Shown here: positions 4,596-20,045 of the stretch, in pieces | How the letters are laid out: each line of letters starts with the position of its first letter | Numbering within the stretch: the stretch's first letter is position 1 | DNA from: Rhodanobacter sp. | GTDB taxonomy: Bacteria > Pseudomonadota > Gammaproteobacteria > Xanthomonadales > Rhodanobacteraceae | DNA: 64,000 nucleotides | Reading direction: 5' to 3' | NCBI GenBank assembly: GCA_030148505.1 | Contig: JASBTI010000016.1 | Location: 124,001-188,000, forward strand | Position numbers and translations under genes: made by a program | Notes under the pieces: generated by a model | Databases searched by the model: none | What the model was told of the DNA's origin: nothing | The model's input: the letters and a program-made list of their open reading frames with translations, nothing else

Positions 4596-6464
4596 TCAAA
4601 ACATCGCCGTAGGCTTGTCTTGAGCGGCTTCAGGCACTTCTCGCGAAGCGATGAAATCGCCGGTAATCATCTGGGCATAGCTGGCACCCGGACCGACCAT
4701 CGGGTAGACGCCGGCGTCCGGGTCGATCATCACCTCCAGGAAAGCCGGGCCCTCGCAGGCGAGAAACCGGGCGATCACCGGCTCCAGCTGTTGTGGGCAA
4801 TCCAGCCGTTCGGCCCAGGCGAAGCCGTCGGCCTGCGCCGCCTTGACGAAATCCTTGGAATGCAGGCTCTTGTCGGACGAGGCGAAACGACCCTTGAAGA
4901 ACAGTTTCTGCCACTGCCGCACCATGCCGTCACCGCAGTTGTTGAGCACCACCACCTTCACCGGCAAGCCGTAGGTGGTGACGGTCTCCATCTCGCCGAT
5001 ATTCATGCGGATGCTGGCATCACCGTCGATGTCGATGACCAGCGCATCACGACGGGCGAACTGCGCCCCGATCGCGGCCGGCAGACCGAAGCCCATCGTC
5101 CCCATCGAACCGGAGGTGAGCCACTGCCTGGGCTCGCGGAAATCCAGATATTGCGCGGCCCACATCTGATGCTGACCCACGCCGGTACTGACCACCGCGC
5201 GCCCCCCGGTGTGGCGGTTGATGGCCTCCAGCACAGCATAGGGCTGGATCAAGGGGCTGGAGCGGTCATAGTTGAGCGCATGCACCTGTTTGAGACGGGC
5301 TACGTGTGCGTGCCAGTCGGCATAGCGCCGATCGGCCTGCGGACGAAACCCGTGCGCCTTGCCGTAGCGGAGCAGGCGCTCCAGCGCCCGCACCAGCGGC
5401 CCGCAGTGGTACCACTGCACCGCCTTGACCTTGCCGATCTCGGCCGGATCGATGTCGATCTGGGCAATGAACTTCGCCGAGGGCGCGAACTTGTCCGGGA
5501 CGCCCGCCACCCGGTCATCGAAGCGCGCACCCAGGGCCAGTACGAAATCGCAATCCTCGACTGCATAGTTGGCATAGGCCGTGCCATGCATCCCGAGCAT
5601 ATGCAGTGCCAGGGGATCGGTGGTGTCGATCGCGCCAAGACCCATCAGTGTGGTGGTGACCGGCAGGCCGAACGTGTCGGCGAACAAGCGCAGTGCGGGC
5701 GCGGCCTGGGCCGCGACGACCCCGCCGCCCGCATAGATCAGGGGACGCCGGGCACATCCCAGCGCCTCAAAAAAAGTGGCGCATTCGGCGTCACTGAGTG
5801 TGGACTGCTCGACCGCGCGCATGCGTGCACGGTAACCGGGAATCGCCAGCGTACCCTCGCCCTCGAAGGTCAGCAGAGCGTTCTGTACGTCCTTGGGAAT
5901 GTCTACCACCACCGGACCCGGGCGGCCGCTGCAGGCAATCTCGAAGGCCGTGCGCAAGGTCGCTTCGAGCCGCCGCGCCTCGGTCACCAGAAACACGTGC
6001 TTGGCACAGGCGCCCATGATGTTACTGATCGGCGCCTCCTGGAACGCGTCGCTGCCGATCGAGGCGGTCGGCACCTGGCCACAAATCACCACCAGCGGAA
6101 TCGAATCGGCCATCGAATCCCGCACCGGCGTCACCATGTTGGTGGCACCGGGACCGGAGGTGACCACGGCCACCCCGGCCTTGCCCGAGGCCCGCGCATA
6201 GCCTGCAGCCATGAATCCCGCACCTTGCTCGTTGGCTGGCACGATCAACGGCATCGGTTCGCCACCGTCATCGCGTGGATGTTCCATGTTGTAACGAAAC
6301 ACCGCGTCATAGACGGGCAGGATCGCCCCGCCGGAATAACCGAATATCACGTCCACGCCGACGTCGGCGAGCACCTGCACGATGATCTCGGCACCGCTCA
6401 TCGACTGGCCACCCAGCGGATGGCGAGCGATTCCACTTTCGGCTTTCAACGTTTGCACATTCAC
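4596..6464 (-). CDS. ilvG: Acetolactate synthase large subunit
   Basis: Catalytic ThDP-dependent subunit of acetohydroxyacid synthase, making acetolactate and acetohydroxybutyrate for valine, leucine and isoleucine. The N-terminal ThDP domain has [16 protein letters not shown] and the catalytic glutamate segment [18 protein letters not shown]. The C-terminal ThDP-binding motif starts at [11 protein letters not shown] and ends in LNN. The first motif reads GYSGG where GYPGG is usual, a small deviation. The 622 residues exceed E. coli IlvG (about 548); extra length is at the N-terminus and in loops. It pairs with the adjacent ilvM. Confidence 0.95.
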
Positions 6465-6489: not shown

Positions 6490-6533
6490 TGATGCGTACG
6501 CCTCGCCTGGAAGCAGGCGAGGCGTACGCATCA
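6490..6533. other. Perfect 19-bp inverted repeat at the ilvC/ilvG junction
   Basis: The arms 6490-6508 and 6515-6533 are exact reverse complements of 19 bases (tgatgcgtacgcctcgcct) with a 6-base loop GGAAGC. The ilvC stop codon (6531-6533) forms the end of one arm. On the minus strand, the direction of the operon, no T-tract follows, so this is not an intrinsic terminator for ilvC. On the plus strand it is followed within 10 bases by six T residues, lying in the ilvC Lys codons. It may be an mRNA processing or stability element, or a terminator of antisense transcription. Confidence 0.8.
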
Positions 6534-7550
6534 GCCTGCTTTTTTCATCGGAGCAGCGGTTGTCTCGGCGGACACCGGCTGCAGCCACGGCATCTGTGCG
6601 CGCAGCTTGGCGCCGACCTTCTCGATCGGGTGGTCAAGATCCGCCTGCTTGAGTTTTTGGTAGTTCGGCAGGCCGGCCTTGTATTCCTCGGTCCAGTTCT
6701 TCGCGAAGGTGCCGTCCTGGATATCGCGCAGCACGTCTTTCATGCGCGCCTTCACACCGGCATCGATCACCCGCGGGCCACTGACGTAATCGCCGTACTG
6801 GGCGGTCTCGGAGACGAACTGCAGCATCTTGGTCAAGCCGCCCTCGTAGAACAGGTCGACGATCAGCTTCAGCTCGTGCATCACCTCGTAATACGCGATC
6901 TCCGGTTGGTAGCCCGCTTCGGTCAGGGTCTCGAAACCGGCGATCACCAGCTCGCTGGCGCCGCCACAGAGCACGGCCTGCTCACCGAACAGATCGGTCT
7001 CGGTCTCTTCCTTGAAATCGGTCTTGATGATCATCGCCCGCCCGCCACCGATACCGTCGGCATAGCCCTTGGTAGTCGCTTCGGCGTGGCCGGTGACATC
7101 CTGGTGTACCGCCCAGATGCACGGCACGCCGCGGCCGCGTTCGTACTCGGTGCGCACCAGCGCACCTGGTCCCTTGGGCGCCACCAGGATCACGTCGATG
7201 TCGGCACGCGGCACGATCTGGCCGAAGTGCACATTGAAACCATGTGCGAACAGCAGCGCGGCGCCGGGCTTGATGTTCGGCTCGATCGACTCCTTGTATA
7301 GCGTCGGCTGCACCATGTCGGGAGTGAGCACGGCGACCAGGTCGGCGCCCTTTACTGCCTCGCCCGGCTCGACCACGTTGAAGCCATCGGCCTTGGCCTT
7401 GTGCCAGGTCGGGCCGTTCGGACGCAGGCCGATCACCACATCAAGGCCGGAATCACGCAGGTTCAGCGCATGCGCGCGGCCCTGGCTGCCGTAGCCGAGC
7501 ACGGCAATGCGGGCCTTGGCCAGGGGGTTGGGGTGGCTGGTATTGCTCAT
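6531..7550 (-). CDS. ilvC: Ketol-acid reductoisomerase (class I)
   Basis: NADPH-dependent isomeroreductase, the second common step of valine and isoleucine synthesis. The dinucleotide-binding loop is [17 protein letters not shown], near residue 20. The metal and substrate region includes [20 protein letters not shown] and [12 protein letters not shown]. At 339 residues it is the short class I form. The ATG overlaps the ilvD stop (ATGA). Its own stop is inside the 19-bp hairpin that separates it from ilvG. Confidence 0.97.
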
Positions 7551-9265
7551 GCGGTAACTCCTTGGTCGACGGATTTGCTGGAAGGTGTGGCCGTCTGGAC
7601 GGCCGAAGATACGGAAGTAAAAGGATGCGTGGTGGCGCCATCGGAGGCGGATCCGACCAAACGGGCGTACTTGGCTAGCGCGCCGGTGGTGACCTTCGGC
7701 GCAGGCGCTTGCCAGCTGGCGCGTCGGCCTTCCAGGTCGGCCGTGGTGGAGAGCTGACGGCTGGCAGCGTCGATGACGATGGGGTCGCCGTCGTGCAGCA
7801 GGGCGATCGGTCCGCCACGCACTGCTTCGGGCGCGACATGACCGACCATGAAGCCGTGCGTGGCACCGGAGAAGCGGCCGTCGGTGATCAGCCCGACATC
7901 GTTGCCGAGGCCGCGGCCGACCAGCGCGGCGGTGACGCCGAGCATCTCGCGCATGCCGGGGCCACCGGCCGGGCCTTCATTGCGGATCACGATCACGTCG
8001 CCCTTGACGATCTTGCCGCCCTGCACCGCGGCGAACGCTTGCTCCTCGCTCTCGAATACCCGCGCCACACCTTCGAAATGGCTGGCACCCTTGCCGGCGA
8101 GCTTGAGGATGCAGCCCTCGGGAGCCAGATTGCCGTACAGAATCGAATAGCCGCCACGCGGCTTCAGGGGGGCGTTGACCGGAAGCACCACGTCCTGCTG
8201 CTCGGCGCGCGGCGCGGCTGCCGCTTCCTCGAACAGGCTGCGGCCGGTGACGGTAGGGGCATCCTCCAGCATGCCAGCGGCGATCAGCTCCTGGGCCACC
8301 CGTGCGCTACCGCCGGCGCCGAACAGCTCCACCGCGGTGTAGCGCCCGGCCGGCAGCAAGTCGGCAATCACCGGCGTATGTACCGAGGCGGGTTCGAAGT
8401 CCTCGATCGTCCACGGCACGCCGGCTTCGCGGGCGATCGCCAGCAAGTGCAGCACGGCATTGGTCGAGCCGGCCGTGGCGGCGACCATGCGTGCCGCATT
8501 GCGCAGCGAGGTACGACTGAACAGTTCGCGCGGTGTACGATTCTGCTTCAGGCATTCCATCACCAGTTCGCCACAACGGAAGGCGGCCGCGCCCTTGGCC
8601 GGATGGGTGGCAGGGATGTCGTTGAAGCCCATCGGTGACAGCCCCAGCGTGGTCAACACCATGGCCATGGTGTTGGCCGTGAACTGGCCACCGCAGGCAC
8701 CGGCGCCCGGACAGGCGTCGCGCTCGACCGAGGCCAGTTCGGTGGCGTCGATCTTGCCTGCACCATACGCGCCGACGGCTTCGAATACCTGCTGGATGGT
8801 GATCGGATGGTTGTCGTGGGTACCGTGCGCAATGCTGCCGCCGTAGAGCGCGACACCGGGGATGTCCAGCCGCGCCAGTGCCATCGCCGCTGCGGGGATG
8901 GTCTTGTCACAGCCGCACAACACCACCATCGCATCGAGGCAGTGGCCATCGACGGCCAGCTCGATCGAGTCGGTGATGACCTCGCGGCTGATCAGTGAGG
9001 CGCGCATGCCCGAAGTGCCCATGGCGATACCGTCGGTGACCGCGATGGTGTTGAACTCGATCGGCGTGCCGCCGGCGGCGCGAATACCAGCCGACGCCTC
9101 GAGCGCCAAGTCGCGCAGGTTGAGGTTGCACGGACTGACGTTGGACCAGGTGTGCACCACCGCAACCAGCGGTTTGGCGATGGCCTCGTCATCCAGGCCG
9201 GTGGCCCGCAGCATCGCGCGGGCGGGCGCGCGGTCGGGGCCGCTCTTGATCGTGTCACTGCGCAT
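7547..9265 (-). CDS. ilvD: Dihydroxy-acid dehydratase
   Basis: Iron-sulfur dehydratase forming the 2-oxo acids of valine and isoleucine. Three cysteine segments expected to hold the cluster are visible: [21 protein letters not shown] and [16 protein letters not shown]. At 572 residues it matches the shorter IlvD group; E. coli IlvD is about 616. The last ~35 residues, rich in Ser/Thr, are less conserved. It follows leuB after a 162-base gap and overlaps ilvC. Confidence 0.96.
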
Positions 9266-9388
9266 GAAAACTCCGGAATCGGTCGAGATGGATGTCCCCC
9301 TGCGTACAGGTCGCGAACGGGTGGCGCGGGGAGTCGTGACGCCAAGGGGGCACGTTCACCGGCGCATGTACACAGGGGGAACAAGTGG

Positions 9389-9407
9389 CGGACGCAGAGC
9401 GCGTCCG
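9389..9407. other. Small hairpin in the leuB-ilvD gap
   Basis: A 7-bp perfect stem CGGACGC/GCGTCCG with a 5-base loop lies just after leuB on the minus strand. No T-tract follows. The remaining 140 bases of this gap show no gene or recognisable site. It may mark an mRNA processing point between the leu and ilv halves of the operon. Confidence 0.45.
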
Positions 9408-9427
9408 AAGGTGAGTTGTCGCTCTGC

Positions 9428-10525
9428 TCAGCCGCACGCGCGTGCGCCGCTGAAAAAAGCGTGGTGGGTCCGGGCATGGTCTTCCAGCGCGACCAGCACC
9501 GCATCGCGAACTGCCAGCGTCCCGGCCTGACCACCGAGGTCGCGGGTGCGGGGACCATGCTGCAATACATGGGAGACGGCCGCCTCCACCGCTTGCGCTT
9601 CGGCATCCAGTTGCAACGAATGCCGCAACAGCATCGCGGCAGAGAGCATCGCGCCCAGCGGGTTGGCCACGCCCTTCCCGGCGATATCCGGGGCCGAACC
9701 GTGGATCGGTTCGTACAGCCCGCGCCTGCCGTCGCCCAGCGACGCCGATGGCAGCAAACCCAGCGAGCCGGCGAGTGCCGCGGCCTCGTCGGTCAGGATG
9801 TCGCCGAACAGGTTCTCGGTGACCACCACGTCATAGCGCGACGGTTGGGTCAGCAGCAACATCGCCATCGAATCGACCAGTTGGTGTTCGACCTTGACGT
9901 CGGGATAGTCGACCGCAACCCGCTGCACCGTGTTGCGCCACAGCCGTGAGGTTTCCAGCACATTGGCCTTGTCCACCGAAGTGAGATGGCGACGGCGATC
10001 GCGCGCCAGCGCGAAGGCGCGACGCACCACCCGCTCGATTTCGACCACGGTGTACTTGCACTCGTCGGTAGCGGTGTCGGCGGTGCGTGTCTTGGCACCG
10101 AAGTAGGCGCCACCGGTGAGCTCACGAACAAACAGCACGTCGACATCCTTGAGCCGCTCGTTCTTCAGTGGCGACAGCGGCGCGAGTGCCGGATGGACTT
10201 GCAAGGGGCGCAAATTGGCGTACACGCCGAGCGCCGCACGTAGCGCCAGCAGGCCCTGCTCCGGACGCACTGACGCATTCGGATCGGACCATTTCGGTCC
10301 GCCGACCGCACCCAGCAGCACCGCGTCGGCAAGCTGACAGGCCGCCAGCGAGGTCGCCGGCAACGGCTCACCGCTGGCATCGATGGCGGCACCGCCGATC
10401 GCATGCTGGTCGAAGTCGAAGTCGTGCTCGTAGTGCCTGGCGACCGCCTGCAACACATCGACGGCAGCCTGGGTGACTTCGGGGCCGACGCCATCGCCGG
10501 GTAGGGTGACTATGCGCGCCTTCAT
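9428..10525 (-). CDS. leuB: 3-isopropylmalate dehydrogenase
   Basis: NAD-dependent oxidative decarboxylase, third step of leucine synthesis. The product is 365 residues. Typical segments are [12 protein letters not shown] at the start, [34 protein letters not shown], and the late [20 protein letters not shown] that binds metal and cofactor. The ATG overlaps the leuD stop. Confidence 0.97.
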
Positions 10526-11121
10526 GCCGCCTGCTCCTGCTTAAAATGATCCGGTTGCTGTTCGTAGTAGGTGATCGCCTCGGTGTGCTGCAGCAGGTAG
10601 CCGAGCTGGTCGATGCCGTTGAGCAGGCAGTGGCGGGCAAAGGGCTCGAGTTCAAACGTCACTCGCCCACCGTCCGGCAATGCGATGTACTCGCCGCGTA
10701 CGTCGATCGACAGTTCGATGCCTGGATGGTCGAGCAGCCACTGATGCTCGGTGGCACTAACCATGATCGCCAGCAAGCCATTCTTCAGCGCGTTGTTGCG
10801 GAAGATGTCCGCGATCTCGCTGCACAGCACGGCCTGGATGCCGTAGTCGAGAAGCGCCCATGGCGCGTGTTCGCGCGACGAGCCACAACCGAAATTGCGC
10901 CCGGCGACGAGGATCGCGCAGCCCTCGGCCTGCGGCTGGTTCAACGGAAACGCGGGGTTATCGCTGCCATCGGCCTGGTAACGCCAGTCGTGGAAACACA
11001 ACGTGCCCAGCCCGTCCCGGGTGGTGGTGGTGAGGAAGCGCGCCGGAATGATCCGGTCGGTATCGATGTTCTCGTCGGCCAGTACGGCAGTTCGCGAGTG
11101 GATTCGGGTAACAGGGCGCAT
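10522..11121 (-). CDS. leuD: 3-isopropylmalate dehydratase small subunit
   Basis: Swivel-domain subunit of isopropylmalate isomerase, partner of LeuC. The 199-residue product has the family start [20 protein letters not shown] and the substrate-binding [17 protein letters not shown]. The ATG at 11121 is chosen by homology; the frame stays open upstream but encodes repeat-derived sequence. Unlike other junctions in this operon, leuC and leuD do not overlap. A 229-base insert-like gap separates them. Confidence 0.95.
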
Positions 11122-11152
11122 CAATGGAACTCCTCGTTTCTTGCGTTCGCCT

Positions 11153-11173
11153 CCTCTCGCCCGCGGGGAGAGG
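11153..11173. repeat. REP-like palindrome upstream of leuD
   Basis: CCTCTC (11153-11158) and GAGAGG (11168-11173) flank a CCC/GGG core, giving a GC-rich hairpin. Its context (ATTGAGGTGAGCGG on one side, GGCGAACG-like sequence on the other) resembles short palindromes scattered between genes in many Xanthomonadales genomes. A related element occurs at 51808-51839. Assignment to one repeat family is an inference. Confidence 0.55.
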
Positions 11174-11231
11174 ATTGAGGTGAGCGGCGGGTGCTCGCCA
11201 TGAGGTGGATCGAAGCCCGTTCCGATGTTGC

Positions 11232-11301
11232 GGCAAGGCAAGCGAGCCTCCTCACTTGCATCCTCCGCAATGACTCCTTGCCTTGCCCTACTTGCATCCT
11301 C
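11232..11301. repeat. Nested direct and inverted repeats in the leuC-leuD gap
   Basis: An 11-bp inverted repeat (GGCAAGGCAAG at 11232-11242, CTTGCCTTGCC at 11277-11287) encloses the first copy of a 12-bp direct repeat ACTTGCATCCTC (11254-11265). The second copy lies at 11290-11301. No open frame of its own is seen. The structure suggests a small inserted element or its remnant inside the operon. Confidence 0.6.
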
Positions 11302-11350
11302 GCAGTCGTCTCTGCGTTGGAGAGAGGAAGGGAAAGAAAAGCGTGAGCAT

Positions 11351-12763
11351 TCATGCCGCCACCTCCACCAGGTACTCGCGTGGATCGGTGATCCGGCCGC
11401 CAACCGCGGAGGCCGCGGCGGTTGCCGGGCTGGCCAGCACGGTGCGCGCGCCCTTGCCCTGGCGGCCCTCGAAATTGCGGTTGGAGGTGCTCACTACCAG
11501 CTGGCCGGGTTGGGCCAGATCGCCGTTCATCGCAATACACATCGAACAGCCCGGCACCCGCCACTCGGCACCGGCAGCGGTGAAGACCTCATGCAGGCCT
11601 TCGCGCTCGGCCTCGCGGCGTACCGCCTCGGAACCGGGCACCACCAGCATGCGTACCCATGACGCCACCGTCCGGCCGCGCAGTACGCTGGCGGCTTCGC
11701 GCAGGTCGGAGAGGCGGGAATTGGTGCAGCTGCCGACAAAGACCACATCGACCCGGGTACCTTGCATCGGCTTGCCCACTTCGCTTTTCATGTAGTCCAG
11801 TGCGCGCCGCTCCTGCGCACTACGCGCGGCCGGTACTGGCACGTCCAGCGCAATCGCCATGCCCGGATGGGTGCCGTAGGTGACAGTCGGCGTGACCAGG
11901 CTGGCGTCGATCCGCACCTCTCGGTCGAAGCGGGCGCCCGCATCGCTGTGCAGACCCCGCCAGCGCGCCATGGCAGCATCCCACGCCTCACCCTGCGGGG
12001 CCTTCGGTCGCCCCTTGAGCCAGGTGAAGGTGGTTTCGTCCGGTGCGATCATGCCCGCCCGCGCACCCGCTTCGATCGACATGTTGCAGACTGTCATGCG
12101 CTCTTCCATCGACAGCGCTTCGATCGCCGCACCGCGATATTCGATGACATGGCCGGTGCCGCCATCGACACCGATTTTCCCGATGATGTGCAGAATCAGA
12201 TCCTTGGCGCCGACGCCGTGGGGCAGCTTGCCGTCGACGTGAATGGCCAGCGTCTTCGGCCGGCGTTGCAGCAGGCACTGGGTAGCCATCACGTGGCCGA
12301 CTTCGGTGGTGCCGATACCGAAGGCCAACGCACCGAACGCGCCGTGGGTCGAGGTATGGCTGTCGCCACAGACGATGGTCATGCCCGGCTGGGTCGCCCC
12401 CAGCTCCGGTCCGATCACATGCACGATGCCGCGGGCGGCGCTGTCCCAGCCATGCAGCTCGACGCCGAACTCGCGGCAGTTGCTTTCCAGCATGCTGACC
12501 TGCGCCTGCGCCTCATCGTTCGCGTAGGGACGCACACCATCGGCACCGACAGGCAGGGTCGGCGTGGAATGATCCAGCGTGGCCAGCATGCGGTCGGGGC
12601 GACGCAATTGCAGTCCGCGCTCACGAAGCGCGCTGAACGCCTGCGGCGAGGTGACTTCGTGCACCAGATGCAGGTCGACGTACAGAATCGCCGGTGTGTC
12701 GACACTCTCGGCAGCCACCACGTGCGCGTCCCACACTTTCTCGAACAGGGTTTTCGCGCTCAT
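11351..12763 (-). CDS. leuC: 3-isopropylmalate dehydratase large subunit
   Basis: Aconitase-family catalytic subunit of isopropylmalate isomerase. The 470-residue product has [20 protein letters not shown], the cluster cysteine segments [15 protein letters not shown] and [10 protein letters not shown], and the ending typical of LeuC ([20 protein letters not shown]). The ATG overlaps the ilvE stop (ATGA). Confidence 0.97.
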
Positions 12764-13716
12764 GCGGCCACCTTTTTGTCGGCCGCCGTTTCATCGGCAA
12801 CACCTACCGGGTCAAGCCAGCCCCAGCGGTCTTCCGTGCTGCCGTCAAACAGGCCGAAGAAGGCCTTCTGCAGATCGCGGGTGATCGGACCGGGCTTGCC
12901 GGCCCCGACGGGTTTGCGATCCACCGAACGCACCGGGGTGATTTCGGCGGCGGTGCCGGTCATGAAGATCTCGTCGGCGCTGTACAGCGCCTCGCGGGGC
13001 AGGTCACGCTCTTCTACCGACAGTCCGAGGTCGGATGCCAGGGTAATGACGGCGTCACGGGTGATCCCGGCCAGAATGCCGGCGCTGCTTGGCGGCGTCA
13101 GCAGCTTGCCGCGCTTGACCAGGAACAGATTCTCGCCGGCACCCTCGCTGAGCAGGCCATTACTGCCCAGCGCGATACCCTCGTCATAGCCGCCGCGGCG
13201 TGCTTCGAGCGCAATCAACTGGCTCGACAGGTAGTTGCCTCCGGCCTTGGCCCAACTCGGCAAGGTGTTGGGCGCGGGACGGTTCCAGGTCGACACGCAG
13301 ACATCCGCGCCGCGCTCCATCGCGTCGCCGAGATAAGCACCCCATTCCAGCGCCATGATCGCGACATCCACCGGCGCATGGCCTGCGGCGGGAATCACCC
13401 CCAGCCCGCCGGCGCCGCGAAACACGATGGGCCGCACATAGGCCGAGCGCATGCGATTGACGCGGATCAACTCCCGGCACGCGGCATTGATCTGATCTTC
13501 GCTATAGCCGATCTCGATTTCATAGACCTTGGCTGACTCGAACAGGCGTCGCGTGTGTTCGGCAAGACGAAAATAGGCCGGCCCCTGCGGGGTGGCATAG
13601 ACCCGCTCACCCTCGAACACGGAGGAACCGTAGTGCAGGGCATGCGTGCTGACATGGACCGTGGCTTCGGCCCAAGGCTTGATCTGTCCGTTGTGCCACA
13701 GGAAAGCAGTATTCAT
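12760..13716 (-). CDS. ilvE: Branched-chain amino acid aminotransferase
   Basis: Class IV PLP aminotransferase for the last step of valine, leucine and isoleucine synthesis. The product is 318 residues. The start [20 protein letters not shown] and the region [19 protein letters not shown] with the PLP lysine are typical, as is [15 protein letters not shown]. Placing ilvE between leuA and leuC lets one transcript carry all transamination and leucine genes. It follows leuA by 15 bases. Confidence 0.95.
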
Positions 13717-13731
13717 GAATGACTCCTCGGC

Positions 13732-15315
13732 TTACAGATGGGCGACCGCGACCGGCGGACGTGCCGGTGCCTGTCGCTCGATGCGGTTGACGATGGCGAG
13801 CGCGGCGAGCGCAGTGGCTTCGACGATGTCGGTGCTGACGCCATGTCCATTCCAGTTACGCTTGCCGTGACGGGCGGTCAGCTGTGCCTGGCCTTGCGCG
13901 TCGCCGCCCTGACTGACCGCACGCACGTTGAAGTCGGTCAGCTGCAGGTCGTTGCCGGTGGCGCGTTCGATCGCGCGCAGCACGGCATCCACCGGACCAT
14001 CGCCGATCGCCGCCTCGCTGGCTTCGCGGCCGTCATCATGGGCGAGCCGCACCGAGGCCGAGGCACTACCGCCCAAATGCGTGGTGCTGTTCAACTGGAC
14101 GATTCGCCACGGACCAAGCGCATCCGGGTCCTGACCCAGCGCGATCGCTTCCAGGTCCTCGTCATGAATTTCGCGCTTCTTGTCGGCCAGTGTCTTGAAG
14201 CGCGCAAAGATGCCGTCCATTTCGGCGTCGGCCGGGTCGTGGCCCAGTGCCTTGAGCCGCTGACGCAAGGCAGCGCGACCGGAGTGCTTGCCCAGGACCA
14301 GGCGGGTCTCTGCGATTCCCACATCCTCTGCGCGCATGATTTCGTACGTCCCGCGGTGCTTGAGCATGCCGTGCTGATGGATGCCCGCTTCGTGCGCAAA
14401 AGCATTCTCACCGACGATCGCCTTGTTGCGCGGCACCGGCTGCCCCGTCAATTGCGTCAACAGGCGGGACGTGGGAAACAGCTTGCGGGTGTCGACCCGC
14501 GTGTCGACCCCGAAGTGCGGGGCGCGCACTTTCAAGGCCATCACGACTTCCTCCAGCGCCGCGTTGCCGGCGCGCTCGCCGATGCCATTTATGGTGCATT
14601 CGACCTGCCGCGCACCGGCACTGACGGCCGCCAGACTGTTCGCCACCGCCATGCCCAAATCGTCGTGGCAGTGGCTGGAAAAGATCACCTTGTCAGCGCC
14701 GACTACGTGACGCCGTAGGTAGTCGAACAAGGCGATGATTTCCGCCGGCGTGGTGTAACCCACCGTATCGGGTGCATTCAATGTAGTGGCGCCGGCGGCG
14801 ACCGCGGCGCTGAATATCTCGACCAGGAATTCGGGCTCGGTACGCAGTGCATCTTCGGCGGAAAATTCGACTTCGTGGCACAAGCCGCGCGCCCGCTCCA
14901 CTCCGGCCACGGCGGCATCCAGCACTTGGGCCTTGCTCATGCCCAGCTTGTGCTCACGATGTAACGGACTGGTCGACAAAAACACATGGATGCGTGAGTG
15001 CTGCGCCATTTCCAGCGCCCGGCCGGCTGCGTCGATATCACCCGGCTGGCAGCGTGCAAGGCCGCAAACGGTGGTGGATTTCAGGGTCCGCGCGATTTCG
15101 GCAACCGCAGCGAAATCGTCGGGCGAGGCCTGTGGGAAGCCCGCTTCAAGTATGTCCACGCCAAGCGCCTCCAGCGCCTGCGCCATGCGCAGCTTGGCCC
15201 GTCGGTCCATCGAAAAGCCGGGCGCCTGCTCGCCATCGCGCAAGGTGGTGTCGAAAATGCGTACGTGCCCGGCCGCTACGTCGGCGTGATTGGATTCTGT
15301 TGTGGGGTTCATCAT
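13732..15315 (-). CDS. leuA: 2-isopropylmalate synthase
   Basis: Condenses 2-oxoisovalerate with acetyl-CoA, the committed step to leucine. The TIM-barrel motif is RIFDTTLRDGEQAPGFSM, and the metal-binding histidines are in FSSHCHDDLGMAVANS. The last ~130 residues look like the LeuA allosteric domain. Two adjacent ATGs (15315 and 15312) follow GCGGAG; spacing slightly favours the second. Length is about 527 residues. It is the first structural gene after the attenuator. Confidence 0.96.
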   Translation of the reverse strand: MMNPTTESNHADVAAGHVRIFDTTLRDGEQAPGFSMDRRAKLRMAQALEALGVDILEAGFPQASPDDFAAVAEIARTLKSTTVCGLARCQPGDIDAAGRALEMAQHSRIHVFLSTSPLHREHKLGMSKAQVLDAAVAGVERARGLCHEVEFSAEDALRTEPEFLVEIFSAAVAAGATTLNAPDTVGYTTPAEIIALFDYLRRHVVGADKVIFSSHCHDDLGMAVANSLAAVSAGARQVECTINGIGERAGNAALEEVVMALKVRAPHFGVDTRVDTRKLFPTSRLLTQLTGQPVPRNKAIVGENAFAHEAGIHQHGMLKHRGTYEIMRAEDVGIAETRLVLGKHSGRAALRQRLKALGHDPADAEMDGIFARFKTLADKKREIHDEDLEAIALGQDPDALGPWRIVQLNSTTHLGGSASASVRLAHDDGREASEAAIGDGPVDAVLRAIERATGNDLQLTDFNVRAVSQGGDAQGQAQLTARHGKRNWNGHGVSTDIVEATALAALAIVNRIERQAPARPPVAVAHL

Positions 15316-15344
15316 TTGGCTCCGCTGGCGTATCACCAAGGGCA

Positions 15345-15378
15345 ATAAAAAACCCCGCTCCGTTTCCGGTGCGGGGTT
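15345..15378 (-). terminator. Attenuator terminator of the leu-ilv operon
   Basis: On the minus strand an 8-bp stem AACCCCGC/GCGGGGTT (arms 15371-15378 and 15351-15358) continues, past an A-A mismatch, into CCG/CGG closed by a GAAA loop. A run of T residues follows. It lies between the leader peptide stop and leuA. The 5' arm CCCGCACC (15368-15375) can instead pair with GGTGCGGG (15427-15434), the last codons of the leader peptide, giving an 8-bp antiterminator. A ribosome finishing the peptide would cover that segment and allow termination. Confidence 0.9.
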
Positions 15379-15422
15379 CTTCGGGAGTCTTCAGGTTTTT
15401 CTATCTACCTGGACACATGCCC

Positions 15423-15560
15423 TCAGCCCGCACCTCCGTTGGTAATGAGGAGTACGAGTACAAGAAGGAGGAGAAGCGTCCCGCGATGATGCAGAAAGCC
15501 GTGGACCGTCAGCTGACGATCCTTCCTGGCGATCTTGCGGGGGCTGCTGCGTTGCGACAT
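15423..15560 (-). CDS. Leader peptide of the leu-ilv operon (45 aa)
   Basis: A 45-residue frame starting ATG-TCG-CAA and ending TGA. Residues 29-39 read LLLLLVLVLLI: eight Leu, two Val and one Ile in eleven codons. This is the sensing run of a ribosome-mediated attenuator. The first half is basic and unremarkable. No Shine-Dalgarno precedes the ATG, and the predicted transcription start is at its A. The peptide itself probably has no function beyond controlling ribosome position. Attenuation of ilv and leu operons is well established in gammaproteobacteria. Confidence 0.88.
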   Translation of the reverse strand: MSQRSSPRKIARKDRQLTVHGFLHHRGTLLLLLVLVLLITNGGAG

Positions 15561-15566
15561 GAACCG

Positions 15567-15596
15567 ACCATAGGGCAGCTTGCAAAGCGACGTCAA
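15567..15596 (-). promoter_or_regulatory. Promoter of the leu-ilv operon
   Basis: Minus-strand TTGACG (15591-15596), 18 bases, then TATGGT (15567-15572). Six bases separate the -10 from the leader ATG at 15560. The same boxes, spacing and downstream ATGTCGCA recur in the thr operon promoter, which supports both as real. Confidence 0.75.
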
Positions 15597-15747
15597 CAGT
15601 TTCATTTGTAATTGCTTCGAGAAAACCAGACGGACGTCCAGATGTCCATATGGAAACTGCCGCACGCTTGGCTGCCGCGAGGCCTCCTCGCTTGACGCAA
15701 GGTTTTGCGCGCAGCGGGCTGCCCGCGGATCAAGCATGGTTGCGCCA

Positions 15748-17061
15748 TCACCGATTTCCATGCCGTAGCCAATCACGCAGCGCGTCGTCGCTAGCGGCCA
15801 AAGGTTCGGCATTGCTGGGCCGCGCCAGCATCTCCGCGAGCGCAGGAGGCACGGTCAAGGTCCGTCCGATCAGCGGCTCGACCACGCTGTCGAACTTGGC
15901 CGGATGCGCGGTGGCGACCACCGCCCAGTGTTCTTCGTCGCCAGCTTCACGGCGCCGCTCAAGTTGCTGTAGGGCGGTTGCCGTATGCGGACAGAACACC
16001 TCGTCATGTTCCCGTGCGTGATGCACGATGGTCTGCCGGATGCTGTCATCGTCGACACTGTTTGCCTTCAGCAAGCGACGCAACGTACGGTCGTCGGGGA
16101 AAGTCCAGCGCAGGCGTTCGTAGTTGCTTGGCGTACCGACGTCCATGGCGTTGGCGATCGTCGCCACCGCTTCGCGCGGTGTGTAGTCGGCACCCTCAAG
16201 GAATTCCGGTAGGGTGGCGTTGGCGTTACACGCCAGTCGCACCTCGCCGATCGGCAAGCCCACCGCACGGGTCCACAGGCAGGCCATCGCATTGCCGAGG
16301 TTGCCGGTGGGCACAATCACGTTCAACGGCGTCCTGTGCTGATGCCACCAACTCAGAGCAGCATGCGCGTAGTAGCTCATCTGCGGCAGCAGTCGACCCA
16401 AGCTGATGCTGTTGGCCGAAGACAGGGGCACGGCCGCCTGCAGCGCTTGATCGGCGAGGGCGGCCTTGACCATCCGTTGACAGTCGTCGAAGCGCCCGGC
16501 GACCCGCAAGGCGTGCACGTTGTCACCAAAGCACCCCAGCTGGTGCGCCTGACGCGGAGAGACCAGACCATCGGGATAAAGGATCACCACCCGCATACCG
16601 GGTTGTCGATGAAAGGCCGCGGCCACGGCAGCGCCGGTATCGCCGGACGTGGCAACCAGGATGGTCAGCGGGCGATGGTCGGCACGTGGCAAACGACACA
16701 GGCAGGCGGCCAGAAAACGAGCGCCCACGTCTTTGAAGGCCGCCGTAGGTCCGTGGAAAAGTTCCAGCACGCTCGCGTTCTGCCGTGGCAACGCGCGTAA
16801 CGGCGTATCGATAGCGAGCGCCTCGGCACAAATCGACGCCAAGGCGTTTTCCAGCGCATCGCCGGCGAAGAATGGCGCCAGCAGCGTCGTCGCGGTAGCC
16901 GCCAGGGTACCTCCCGGATCGAACGCGGCAAGATCCAGCTCTGGCAGCGCCTGCGGTACATAAAGCCCGCCATCGGGTGCCAGCCCCTCGGCAATCGCCT
17001 GGCCGAGCGCAGCGGCGGGACTTCCGCCACGGGTGCTGACGTATTTCATCGGGCCGGTCAT
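15748..17061 (-). CDS. thrC: Threonine synthase
   Basis: PLP enzyme converting O-phosphohomoserine to threonine. The lysine motif is [16 protein letters not shown], and the phosphate-binding region includes [15 protein letters not shown]. Starting at the ATG overlapping the thrB stop (17061) gives 437 residues beginning [13 protein letters not shown]; the second Met at 17049 is an equal alternative by homology. Length fits the E. coli type (about 428). No convincing intrinsic terminator follows; two GC-rich hairpins without T-tracts lie between thrC and the leu-ilv promoter. Confidence 0.96.
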
Positions 17062-18071
17062 GCGCTTGCCATATCGGTGAGCGTGTCGAGCAGACTGGCG
17101 GCCGGGCCATTTACCGGCGCGACGAAGCTGTCGCTGTCCAGACCCACCTCGGCGAAGGCCTTGGACATCGCAGCCGCGGCCGCGACCGCCGGGGCGCGCG
17201 TTTCGTACCAGCCGAACACGCTGGGTCCGGCACCGGAGATACTGGCCCCCAGGGCGCGATGATCCAGTGCGGCTTGTTTGACGCGAGCGAAGTTGGGTAT
17301 CAGCGATGCGCGCCTCGGTTCCACCAGTACATCCTTCAGCCCCTCGCGCACCAGGGTGGCGTCTGCGTTCCAGCAGCCGGCGAGCACCAGGGCCAGGTTG
17401 CCGCTCTGCGCCACGAACTCGGCGAGGGCGTAGTCGCCAGCCAGTGCTGCACGGGCCTTGCGGGTTTCGAGCACGGCATGGGGATGCACTACGGCGCAAT
17501 GCCACTCGGCGGGCACGGGTATGCGCAGCAAGCGATCAGGCGTGGCCAGCACCAGTCCGCCGAGCAGCATGGCGCCGAGATTGTCCCCATGACGGCCGCC
17601 GCTGGCGACGGCTTCGCCGTCCAGCGCGAAGCCGTACAGCGCTTCGCGCGGCAGCGGTTGCGCCAGCAATGCATTGGCCGCTACCAGCGCCGCCACGCAG
17701 GAGGCCGCAGAACCACCCATCCCCGAGCCGAGCGCGATGCCTTTGTGCAGCACCAGCTCGAATCCATGCTGCAAACCCAATGCCTTGCGCAACGACAGCA
17801 GGGCAACCCCGGCCGTGTTCTGGCGCGGATCGGTAGGCAGCATCTCGACGCAGCCGTGAATGGCGGCAATCCGTACCACCGGTTCGTCGATTCGTCGCAC
17901 CTCGGCACGGTCGCCGATACCGGCCAAGCTGTGTCCGAGCAGATCGAAACCGACTGCCACATTGCCAACGCTGGCGGGAGCACAGGCACAGGCGTGTTGC
18001 AGCGGTAGCGCGGGACGCGAAAGAGGCATGACGGATTCCGGCAGTTCGACACTCATCGGGACAGCCTTCAT
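17058..18071 (-). CDS. thrB: Homoserine kinase (GHMP family)
   Basis: Phosphorylates homoserine. The GHMP ATP-binding motif is [21 protein letters not shown]. The early segment [16 protein letters not shown] and the late [12 protein letters not shown] are typical of ThrB. Length is 337 residues (E. coli about 310). The ATG overlaps the upstream dehydrogenase stop and the thrC ATG overlaps its own stop, so the three genes are translationally coupled. Confidence 0.95.
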
Positions 18072-19225
18072 GCGCGTGCCTCCAGTGACTCGGCAACGCG
18101 CAAAAGATCGGCGAACACGCCAGCGGCGGTCACTTCGGGGCCGGCACCCGGCCCTTGCACCAGCAGCGGATTATCGCAGTAGCGGCGGGTGCGAAACTGC
18201 ACCACATTGTCAGTGAGGCGGCTGTGGGCGAAGGCATGCGCTGCAGGCAGCACCGTCAAGCGCACGCTGGCACGGCCGTGACGGTCCAGATGTGCAACGT
18301 GACGAAGCACACCGCCCACGGCCCTCGCTGCAGCGAGTTTGGCGGCCATCGGGGCATCCAGTTCCTCCAATCGCTCCATGCAGGACTCCAGCGGCAAGGA
18401 CGCGAAGGTCGGTGGCACGAGACTTTCCACCTCGACGTCTTCCATCGACAACGACCATCCTGCTTCGCGCGCCAGAATCACCAGCTTGCGCGCCACATCG
18501 GTGCCGGAAAGGTCATCCCGCGGATCGGGTTCGGTATAGCCCAGGTGATGTGCCTCGCGTACCAGGGCGGAAAACGGCAGGTCGCCATCATAGCGATTGC
18601 ACAACCAGGCCAAGGTACCGGAGAACATGCCTTCAACCGCCAGCAGTTCGTCGCCCGTGTCGATCAGGTCGCGCAAAGTCTGTACCACCGGCAGGCCCGC
18701 GCAGACGGTGGCTTCGTAGCGGAAGCGCCCGCCCCCGGCACACGCGGCGCGGATCGCCTGCCAGCGCGCCAACGGTCCGCTTCCGGCCAGTTTGTTCGGG
18801 GTCACTACATGCAGGCCATCGGCCAGCCAGCGGGGATACTGCGCTGCCACGTCGTCATTCGCGCTGCAGTCGACCAGCAATGCGTGGCGACCTTCGTTGC
18901 CGGCGACGTGGGCAGCAAACGCGTCAAGGTCGCTGGGACGCCAGATCTGGGCGCCCCCATGACGACCATTCAGTTCGGCATCGTCGCAGTCCATCCACAT
19001 GCGCTTGCTGGCCACCACGCCGCAAAGTTTCAGTTCCAAGCCGCCGTCACGCGACAGTCGCGCCTGCGCCGCGCGCAACTGCGCGAGCAAGGCGCTGCCT
19101 ACCCGACCTGGACCGATCAGGCCTACGGCGAGCACGCGCCGCCGCGGCGACTCCGGCACGACCGCGGGCATCAACCGGGACGGCGGCAGCGGGTGTTCGG
19201 CGACTGGGGATGCACAGGTATTCAC
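18068..19225 (-). CDS. Homoserine dehydrogenase, ThrA-type without aspartokinase domain
   Basis: NAD(P)-dependent dehydrogenase making homoserine. The Rossmann motif is [25 protein letters not shown] and [17 protein letters not shown] follow, then [20 protein letters not shown], closely matching the dehydrogenase half of bifunctional ThrA. The protein is only 385 residues, with no aspartokinase domain at its N-terminus and none encoded upstream. The start is the GTG at 19225, preceded by a strong GGAGG. Aspartokinase must be encoded elsewhere. Confidence 0.93.
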
Positions 19226-19230
19226 GATAA

Positions 19231-19245
19231 CCTCCAAAGGGGAGG
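19231..19245 (-). promoter_or_regulatory. Hairpin covering the Shine-Dalgarno of homoserine dehydrogenase
   Basis: On the minus strand CCTCC-CCTTT-GGAGG folds into a 5-bp stem that hides the GGAGG ribosome site just before the GTG. A second GC hairpin, CCCGCC/GGCGGG (19280-19298), lies upstream without a T-tract. The thr leader may therefore act at translation initiation. A short stem like this could occur by chance. Confidence 0.4.
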
Positions 19246-19319
19246 CCCGTGCTCGCTGGCGTTTCGGCTGGTGCGCCGTCCCGCCTGTCGAGGGCGGGGC
19301 CGTTGCGCTGATGAAACCT

Positions 19320-19493
19320 CTAACCGCGCACTGACACCCACCCCGACCGGGTCGTAATCGACGTCGTGATGGTGAAGGTGCTGGCATGGGAAAGCGTACT
19401 GCCACAGAAGCTCAGGATGCCATCAAACGACGGCGCGCGATCAGCGGGGAGCCGATCGAAGTGTATCCGTGCTGGTGTGACAGGATGCGACAT
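19320..19493 (-). CDS. thrL: Leader peptide of the thr operon (57 aa)
   Basis: A 57-residue frame starting ATG-TCG-CAT and ending TAG. Residues 38-48 read STFTITTSITT, with six Thr and two Ile codons in eleven, as in thr attenuator peptides that sense threonine and isoleucine. Its ATG has no ribosome site and lies six bases from the -10 box. It is divergent from the VOC gene. Gene-symbol use is by analogy with E. coli thrL; the sequence is not similar outside the Thr/Ile run. Confidence 0.82.
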   Translation of the reverse strand: MSHPVTPARIHFDRLPADRAPSFDGILSFCGSTLSHASTFTITTSITTRSGWVSVRG

Positions 19494-19499
19494 GACTTG

Positions 19500-19529
19500 A
19501 CCATAGAGTGATTGTTGCGGTGCGGTCAA
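19500..19529 (-). promoter_or_regulatory. Promoter of the thr operon
   Basis: Minus-strand TTGACC (19524-19529), 18 bases, then TATGGT (19500-19505), then six bases to the leader ATG. The layout is the same as the leu-ilv promoter at 15567-15596. Upstream of both -35 boxes the sequence TTGCAAATGAA or TTACAAATGAA is also shared. Confidence 0.75.
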
Positions 19530-19622
19530 CAGATTCATTTGCAACTTTTTGCCACGCAGGGTTCTTGACCGACTCCGCGGCAGCGGCAAAGCTGCAGGAT
19601 GCGCCCTGTAGAGTTTCTTGCC

Positions 19623-20045
19623 ATGCATGAACGTCCCCCGTTTCATCTCGCCTTCCCGGTGACATCACTGACTGCGGCACGAGCCTTTTACGGCAACCTG
19701 CTGGGCTGTCCCGAGGGTCGCAGCAGTGAGAGCTGGGTCGATTTCGATTTTCACGGCCATCAAATCGTGGCCCATCTCGCCCCCGCCGAGGTGGTTGCGT
19801 CGACCTCGCAGGAGGTGGACGGTGATCAGGTTCCGGTACGGCACTTCGGCCTGGTGTTGCCGCTTGACCAATGGCAGGCGCTCGCGGAACGGCTCAAGGC
19901 GTGTGGAACACGCTTCGTGGTACCTCCCCACACGCGTTTCCAGGGGCAGCCGGGCGAACAATCCACCATGTTCTTGCTCGATCCCAGCGGTAACGCGCTC
20001 GAGTTCAAGGCATTTGCCGACCCATCGAAACTGTTTGCCAGGTAG
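19623..20045 (+). CDS. VOC (glyoxalase/dioxygenase fold) family protein
   Basis: A 140-residue single-module protein beginning [22 protein letters not shown], the usual opening of the vicinal-oxygen-chelate fold. [12 protein letters not shown] in the middle and [15 protein letters not shown] at the end supply the expected metal-ligand positions (His and the final Glu). Substrate cannot be told; many such proteins are annotated glyoxalase or dioxygenase-like. It is divergent from the thr leader. Confidence 0.85.

Follow-up and report, generated by a model that had tools for sequence, protein, structure and literature searches.

The 64,000-nucleotide stretch of Rhodanobacter sp. DNA analysed here (contig JASBTI010000016.1, positions 124,001 to 188,000; hereafter the window), which derives from a soil bacterium, carries ahead of its thr operon (hom, thrB, and thrC) a threonine leader peptide gene followed by an RNA element; the element is real and conserved, and its downstream RNA is more interesting than its promoter. 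The leader is probably a peptide-dependent switch on the translation of hom that employs the Z/A core of Escherichia coli thrL without a U-tract. In such a switch, a leaderless, Thr-rich leader would precede the thr genes, and the RNA behind it would hide or free the hom ribosome-binding site: when ON, a hub (segment A) would pair with the end of the leader open reading frame (ORF) and with the sequestering segment, forming a pseudoknot, and when OFF, it would pair with its hairpin partner. The parts of the element are as follows (window coordinates).

19524..19529, minus strand: -35 box TTGACC of the thr leader promoter (TTGAC also in relatives)
19500..19505, minus strand: -10 box TATGGT of the thr leader promoter, 6 nucleotides (nt) 5' of the leader ATG (putative leaderless start)
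19320..19493, minus strand: thr leader ORF, 57 codons, MSHPVTPARIHFDRLPADRAPSFDGILSFCGSTLSHASTFTITTSITTRSGWVSVRG
19350..19379, minus strand: Thr/Ile control codons, TFTITTSITT in translation (position worked out by hand)
19337..19346, minus strand: segment Z (TCGGGGTGGG), directly 3' of the Thr codons and inside the leader ORF; pairs with A
19288..19303, minus strand: segment A (ACGGCCCCGCCCTCGA), hub able to pair with Z, B, or C
19276..19287, minus strand: segment B (CAGGCGGGACGG), forming hairpin A:B, with no T-run after it
19241..19251, minus strand: segment C (CACGGGCCTCC), predicted to pair with A or D
19231..19235, minus strand: segment D, the Shine-Dalgarno sequence GGAGG of hom

Predicted alternative pairings behind the thr leader

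The leader is a short ORF rich in end-product codons. A relaxed promoter pattern recovered such a Thr-rich leader, a short distance past a TTGAC box and ahead of hom or thrA, at 70 of 81 loci (the window and 80 relatives), the strict pattern yielding 42. Behind the thr stop codon, the A-B hairpin, segment C (CGGG(G)CCTC), and the Shine-Dalgarno segment D are conserved, and in a competing anti-structure, Z:A, the last part of the leader ORF pairs with the hairpin's 5' arm. The A:C pairing co-varies and fits the alternative pairing by which a leader-peptide translational attenuator of ermC-like output frees the Shine-Dalgarno sequence of its first gene; we infer that its formation would free D in the cell. 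For these comparisons, 100 loci (the window and nine Xanthomonas loci being set aside) were searched with a covariance model, which matched all but L061 and L080 (98 loci); from its 100 matches, L119, L120, and two antisense matches (L006 and L013) were dropped, leaving 96 for analysis. The Z:A comparison used distinct segment pairs, with L043, L046, L054, and L059 falling outside its two family groups. The C:D pairing is conserved in shape and reached by 5 of 1000 swaps, but by 173 of 1000 after thinning, and the core is paired locally in 83 of the 96 sequences. B:C was also considered as an anti-sequestering pair and rejected (834 of 1000 swaps reach it). Ensemble accessibility of the hom Shine-Dalgarno sequence shifts little, and its release is not clearly shown by energy calculations. 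Folded as a single sequence, the thr leader of the window is unremarkable (z -1.41, with 15 of 200 shuffles as good).

Two loci merit separate mention. L138 holds a divergent element whose A segment is without GGCC, although Z (GGAGCGG) and A (CCGCTCC) remain fully matched; it helps to tell apart what each end of A does. L124 (G067:C2) carries the thr element twice, 1.7 kb apart, with the second copy behind a run of N; this is probably an assembly artefact.

The features of the leu leader next door follow for comparison.

15567..15596, minus strand: leu leader promoter TTGACG-N18-TATGGT (TTGACG 15591-15596; TATGGT 15567-15572)
15423..15560, minus strand: leu leader ORF, 45 codons, Leu/Val, ending LLLLLVLVLLITNGGAG
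15347..15376, minus strand: leu intrinsic terminator (CCCCGCACC ... GGAGCGGGG + T6)

This leader is a classical antiterminator/terminator pair (single-sequence fold z -2.88): GGTGCGGGCTGA, located at the leader stop (15423-15434), is a second pairing partner of the terminator's 5' arm, and all 26 leu leaders have GGTGCGGGCT at their stop codon, CCCGCACC further on, and GCGGGG followed by a T-run of 5-8 (the leu leader of L037, which ends LISSGGAG, failed the peptide pattern and stands outside the 26). The first-pass annotation of the window held that the thr operon repeats the same attenuator layout, and this is borne out for the leader ORF, which begins 6-7 nt behind a TANNNT box in both operons, but not for the RNA: whereas the leu leader of the window (15347-15596) has a classical terminator with T6 and neither a C nor a D segment, the thr leader has the two extra segments and no intrinsic terminator. 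An intrinsic terminator was rejected for the latter because the A:B hairpin lacks a U-run, the longest T-run between 25 and 105 nt past the stop being 1-3 at all 70 thr loci.

These observations bear on the rival mechanisms. That the thr leader acts by transcription attenuation is suggested by the match of Z, A, and B to their antiterminator/terminator counterparts in E. coli thrL and the adjacent leu leader, as well as by A:B being the strongest local hairpin; nevertheless, it is unlikely, given that T-runs reach at most 3 at the 70 thr loci versus 5-8 in the 26 leu terminators of the same family and that the co-varying A:C pairing would be left without a role. Rho-dependent attenuation, in which the leader switch would expose or cover a Rho loading site between the leader and hom and polarity would follow from hidden hom translation, accords with the missing intrinsic terminator, and Rho might come into play even behind a translational switch; as Rho alone would leave the position of C:D at the Shine-Dalgarno sequence unexplained, we hold it to be very unlikely. 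Alongside the translational switch on hom, a broader evolutionary version can be offered tentatively, with something short of even confidence, namely that a leaderless switch of the Xanthomonadales arose by rewiring an E. coli-type antiterminator/terminator core to the translation of hom or thrA, with the adjacent leu attenuator still transcriptional.

Promoters and first codons of the thr and leu leaders

The boxes, spacings, and upstream letters first reported for both leaders are all correct, the strand, which went unstated, being minus. The thr promoter reads TTGACC-N18-TATGGT-N6-ATGTCGCA, with ATG at 19493 and CAAATGAATCTG upstream, and the originally noted interval (19320-19529) runs exactly from the thr -35 box through the leader stop; at leu, 6 bases separate TATGGT from the ATG at 15560, and CAAATGAAACTG lies upstream of TTGACG. 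Among the strict-pattern sites, whose selection itself permitted gaps of 4-9 and spacers of 16-20, the gap between -10 box and ATG is 6 or 7 nt at 37 of the 42 thr sites and at all 26 leu sites, and the spacer is 18 at 38 and 23 of these, respectively. Tetramers resembling a Shine-Dalgarno sequence occur within -16 to -4 at 10 of 42 thr and 6 of 26 leu sites, in a scan that includes AAGG, itself part of TAAGGT boxes. Because the TANNNT-to-ATG gap of 6-7 nt is conserved in the family, a near-zero 5' untranslated region is likely for both leaders in Rhodanobacteraceae, and, judged from the same distance, the thr leader mRNA is probably leaderless. The -10 box of Xanthomonadaceae thr leaders is poor.

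Within one genome, the bare promoter-ATG layout is not above chance, as TTGAC-N17..19-TANNNT-N5..7-ATG has 5 matches in 3.68 Mb versus 4 for the reversed control; the case therefore rests on conservation in relatives. The other three loose matches open ORFs of 159, 50, and 92 amino acids, unlike amino-acid leaders. The narrower TATGGT-N6-ATGTCGCA has 2 matches in the window at up to two mismatches (both exact; 0.32 expected, with 5 of 100 shuffles reaching 2) and, at up to one mismatch, finds the thr and leu sites only in the whole genome (2, against 0 for the reversed control pattern). Across the order, TTGAC-N19-TANNNT-N5..8-ATG-N1..3-CGCA occurs in 103 of 398 genomes (the control giving 11 matches in 10 genomes); by a hand count from the table, the window's family, with 125 genomes, contributes 97 of these. 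The notion that leader ORF and promoter are chance patterns, which the loose count of 5 versus 4 might encourage, is therefore rejected and given next to no credence in view of the Thr-rich leader at 70 of 81 loci, the order-level counts with 97 of 125 family genomes, and the co-varying pairs.

A common origin of the two promoters had also been proposed, partly on account of their first codons. As noted at the outset, the peptides diverge after the start; Thr/Ile codons lie in one and Leu/Val codons in the other. The shared first codons fail as a sign of origin: by hand count, thr leaders start MSP in 26 of 40 (those of Rhodanobacteraceae type) and leu leaders MSQR in 17 of 26, the MSH of the window's thr leader shares CGCA with MSQ through codon coincidence, and the CGCA form stands at both operons in only 2 of 398 genomes (the window's and G248). 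On these start-codon tallies and order-level counts, the identical ATGTCGCA was rejected as a mark of common origin and appears to be largely coincidence, although Ser recurs as the second residue (37 of 42 thr and 20 of 26 leu leaders).

The upstream letters fare better in part. A motif, (A/C)AAATGAA-CTG, lies 5' of both -35 boxes (19530-19545 and 15597-15612), recurs in many relatives, and is possibly an UP-like element. In 24 genomes, comparing the 26 upstream nt of thr with those of leu gives 15.4 identical positions for pairs from one genome, 15.0 for pairs from different genomes, and 10.6 once the upstream letters are shuffled; 332 of 2000 permutations reach the within-genome value. A shared upstream motif thus exists and is not genome-specific; it may stem from an old common origin or a common constraint, while the idea that one promoter was recently copied from the other is rejected, as similarity within genomes is not above that between them. 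The earlier reading that both leaders descend from one duplicated promoter-leader unit can invoke the common TTGAC-N18-TANNNT-N6/7-ATG, the upstream motif above the shuffled level, and the GGTGCGG/CCGCACC core common to leu leaders and Xanthomonadaceae thr leaders. We nonetheless regard it as quite unlikely, since the upstream likeness is no higher within genomes, the leader peptides are unlike, and E. coli thrL has the same core, so that duplication in this lineage is not required. The proposed extension to his, trp, and phe operons also came to nothing, the promoter patterns giving no further amino-acid leader in the genome (leaders with other promoters were not sought).

Distribution and gene neighbourhood

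The covariance model, built from 40 Rhodanobacteraceae-type sequences and of low sensitivity outside that type, matches 98 of the order's 398 genomes, of which 94 belong to the window's family (125 genomes) and 4 lie outside it (273 genomes). Of 9 Xanthomonas loci in which the element is known to be present, 6 escape the model at E 0.1, and Xanthomonadaceae members were located by leader search instead; absence of the element elsewhere is therefore not shown. Among the 11 loci without a leader match, L039 carries the RNA element, and the remaining 10 (several myxobacterial by title) gave no model match, which, given those missed Xanthomonas cases, does not amount to absence. A class-wide search matched 3 of 274 genomes, one of them that of the window, with nothing convincing beyond it under the same insensitivity; the two other matches, L119 and L120 (E 0.0018 and 0.0047), do not show the segments and were not accepted. 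Rfam 15 gave no gathering-level match in the window and, at E up to 5, only three unrelated families in 15200-19650.

The thr and leu operons lie head to tail on one strand (6531-19529), in the minus-strand order thr leader, hom, thrB, thrC, leu leader, leuA, ilvE, leuC, leuD, leuB, ilvD, ilvC; the leu leader sits between thrC and leuA, so that a transcript reading through from the thr promoter would cross the leu attenuator. An ilvG-like ORF at 4596-6464 is named from its sequence only. The thr genes are as follows.

18068..19225, minus strand: hom, homoserine dehydrogenase, GTG start (NF006959 profile 463-815 of 819, under the curated cut-off of the bifunctional enzyme)
17058..18071, minus strand: thrB, homoserine kinase (TIGR00191 above cut-off)
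15748..17505, minus strand: ORF containing thrC, threonine synthase (TIGR00260 above cut-off; true start probably internal)

The hom product corresponds to the C-terminal, homoserine dehydrogenase half of ThrA only, as a stand-alone protein with a short unmatched N-terminus, and its closest named relatives are from Rhodanobacter assemblies (87% identity). At Xanthomonas/Stenotrophomonas loci (L052-L082), about 1.5 kb separates the leader from the matched part, which would give room for the aspartokinase half.

Relation to known leader systems

If the proposed switch is correct, a thrL-type core would appear to have changed its output from terminating transcription to hiding a Shine-Dalgarno sequence, a change testable by part swaps with the sister leu attenuator, which kept its terminator about 4 kb away. 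The element would also add a conserved cis-regulatory RNA unmatched by Rfam 15 in the window and offer a case for studying ribosome starts on leaderless leader ORFs. In the literature searched (titles and abstract starts), this thr element of Xanthomonadales was not described, and the passages sought in one paper held a single unrelated Xanthomonas mention (PMC2965389); as the survey of proteobacterial attenuators by Vitreschak et al. (2004) may cover Xanthomonas thr and leu, no priority is claimed.

Leaderless attenuators as such are already known. Streptomyces lividans has leaderless leader peptides, several of which, including thrL before thrS, lack a clear U-tract terminator (PMC8079986), and S. 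meliloti trpL is a leader ORF at the RNA 5' end within a transcription attenuator that has a terminator (PMC7298713); both share the 5'-end leader ORF proposed for thr, although genes and phyla differ. The Corynebacterium ilvB-II upstream ORF is a transcription attenuator (PMC10272879). Another parallel is the actinobacterial LEU element upstream of leuA, a comparison-based proposal that combines a control-codon leader peptide, a predicted pseudoknot, and Shine-Dalgarno pairing (PMC1262725). There, in another phylum and operon, the leucine codons themselves pair with the Shine-Dalgarno sequence, whereas in the thr leader a separate segment C would do so, and hub A has a further pairing partner in the last part of the leader ORF.

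E. coli thrL, ahead of thrABC, has the same operon function, a Thr/Ile leader peptide, and the Z/A core GGTGCGGGCTGA / GCCCGCACC, with one part where the leader ORF ends and the other in the hairpin that follows. It differs in carrying a T9 terminator and, before the leader, untranslated bases (annotated from 190 of the record), whereas the thr leader of the window probably starts near the 5' end, lacks a T-run, and adds C and D segments at the hom Shine-Dalgarno sequence. What seems distinctive is the combination, found across two families, of a retained E. coli thrL core, a missing terminator, and a hub tied to the Shine-Dalgarno sequence.
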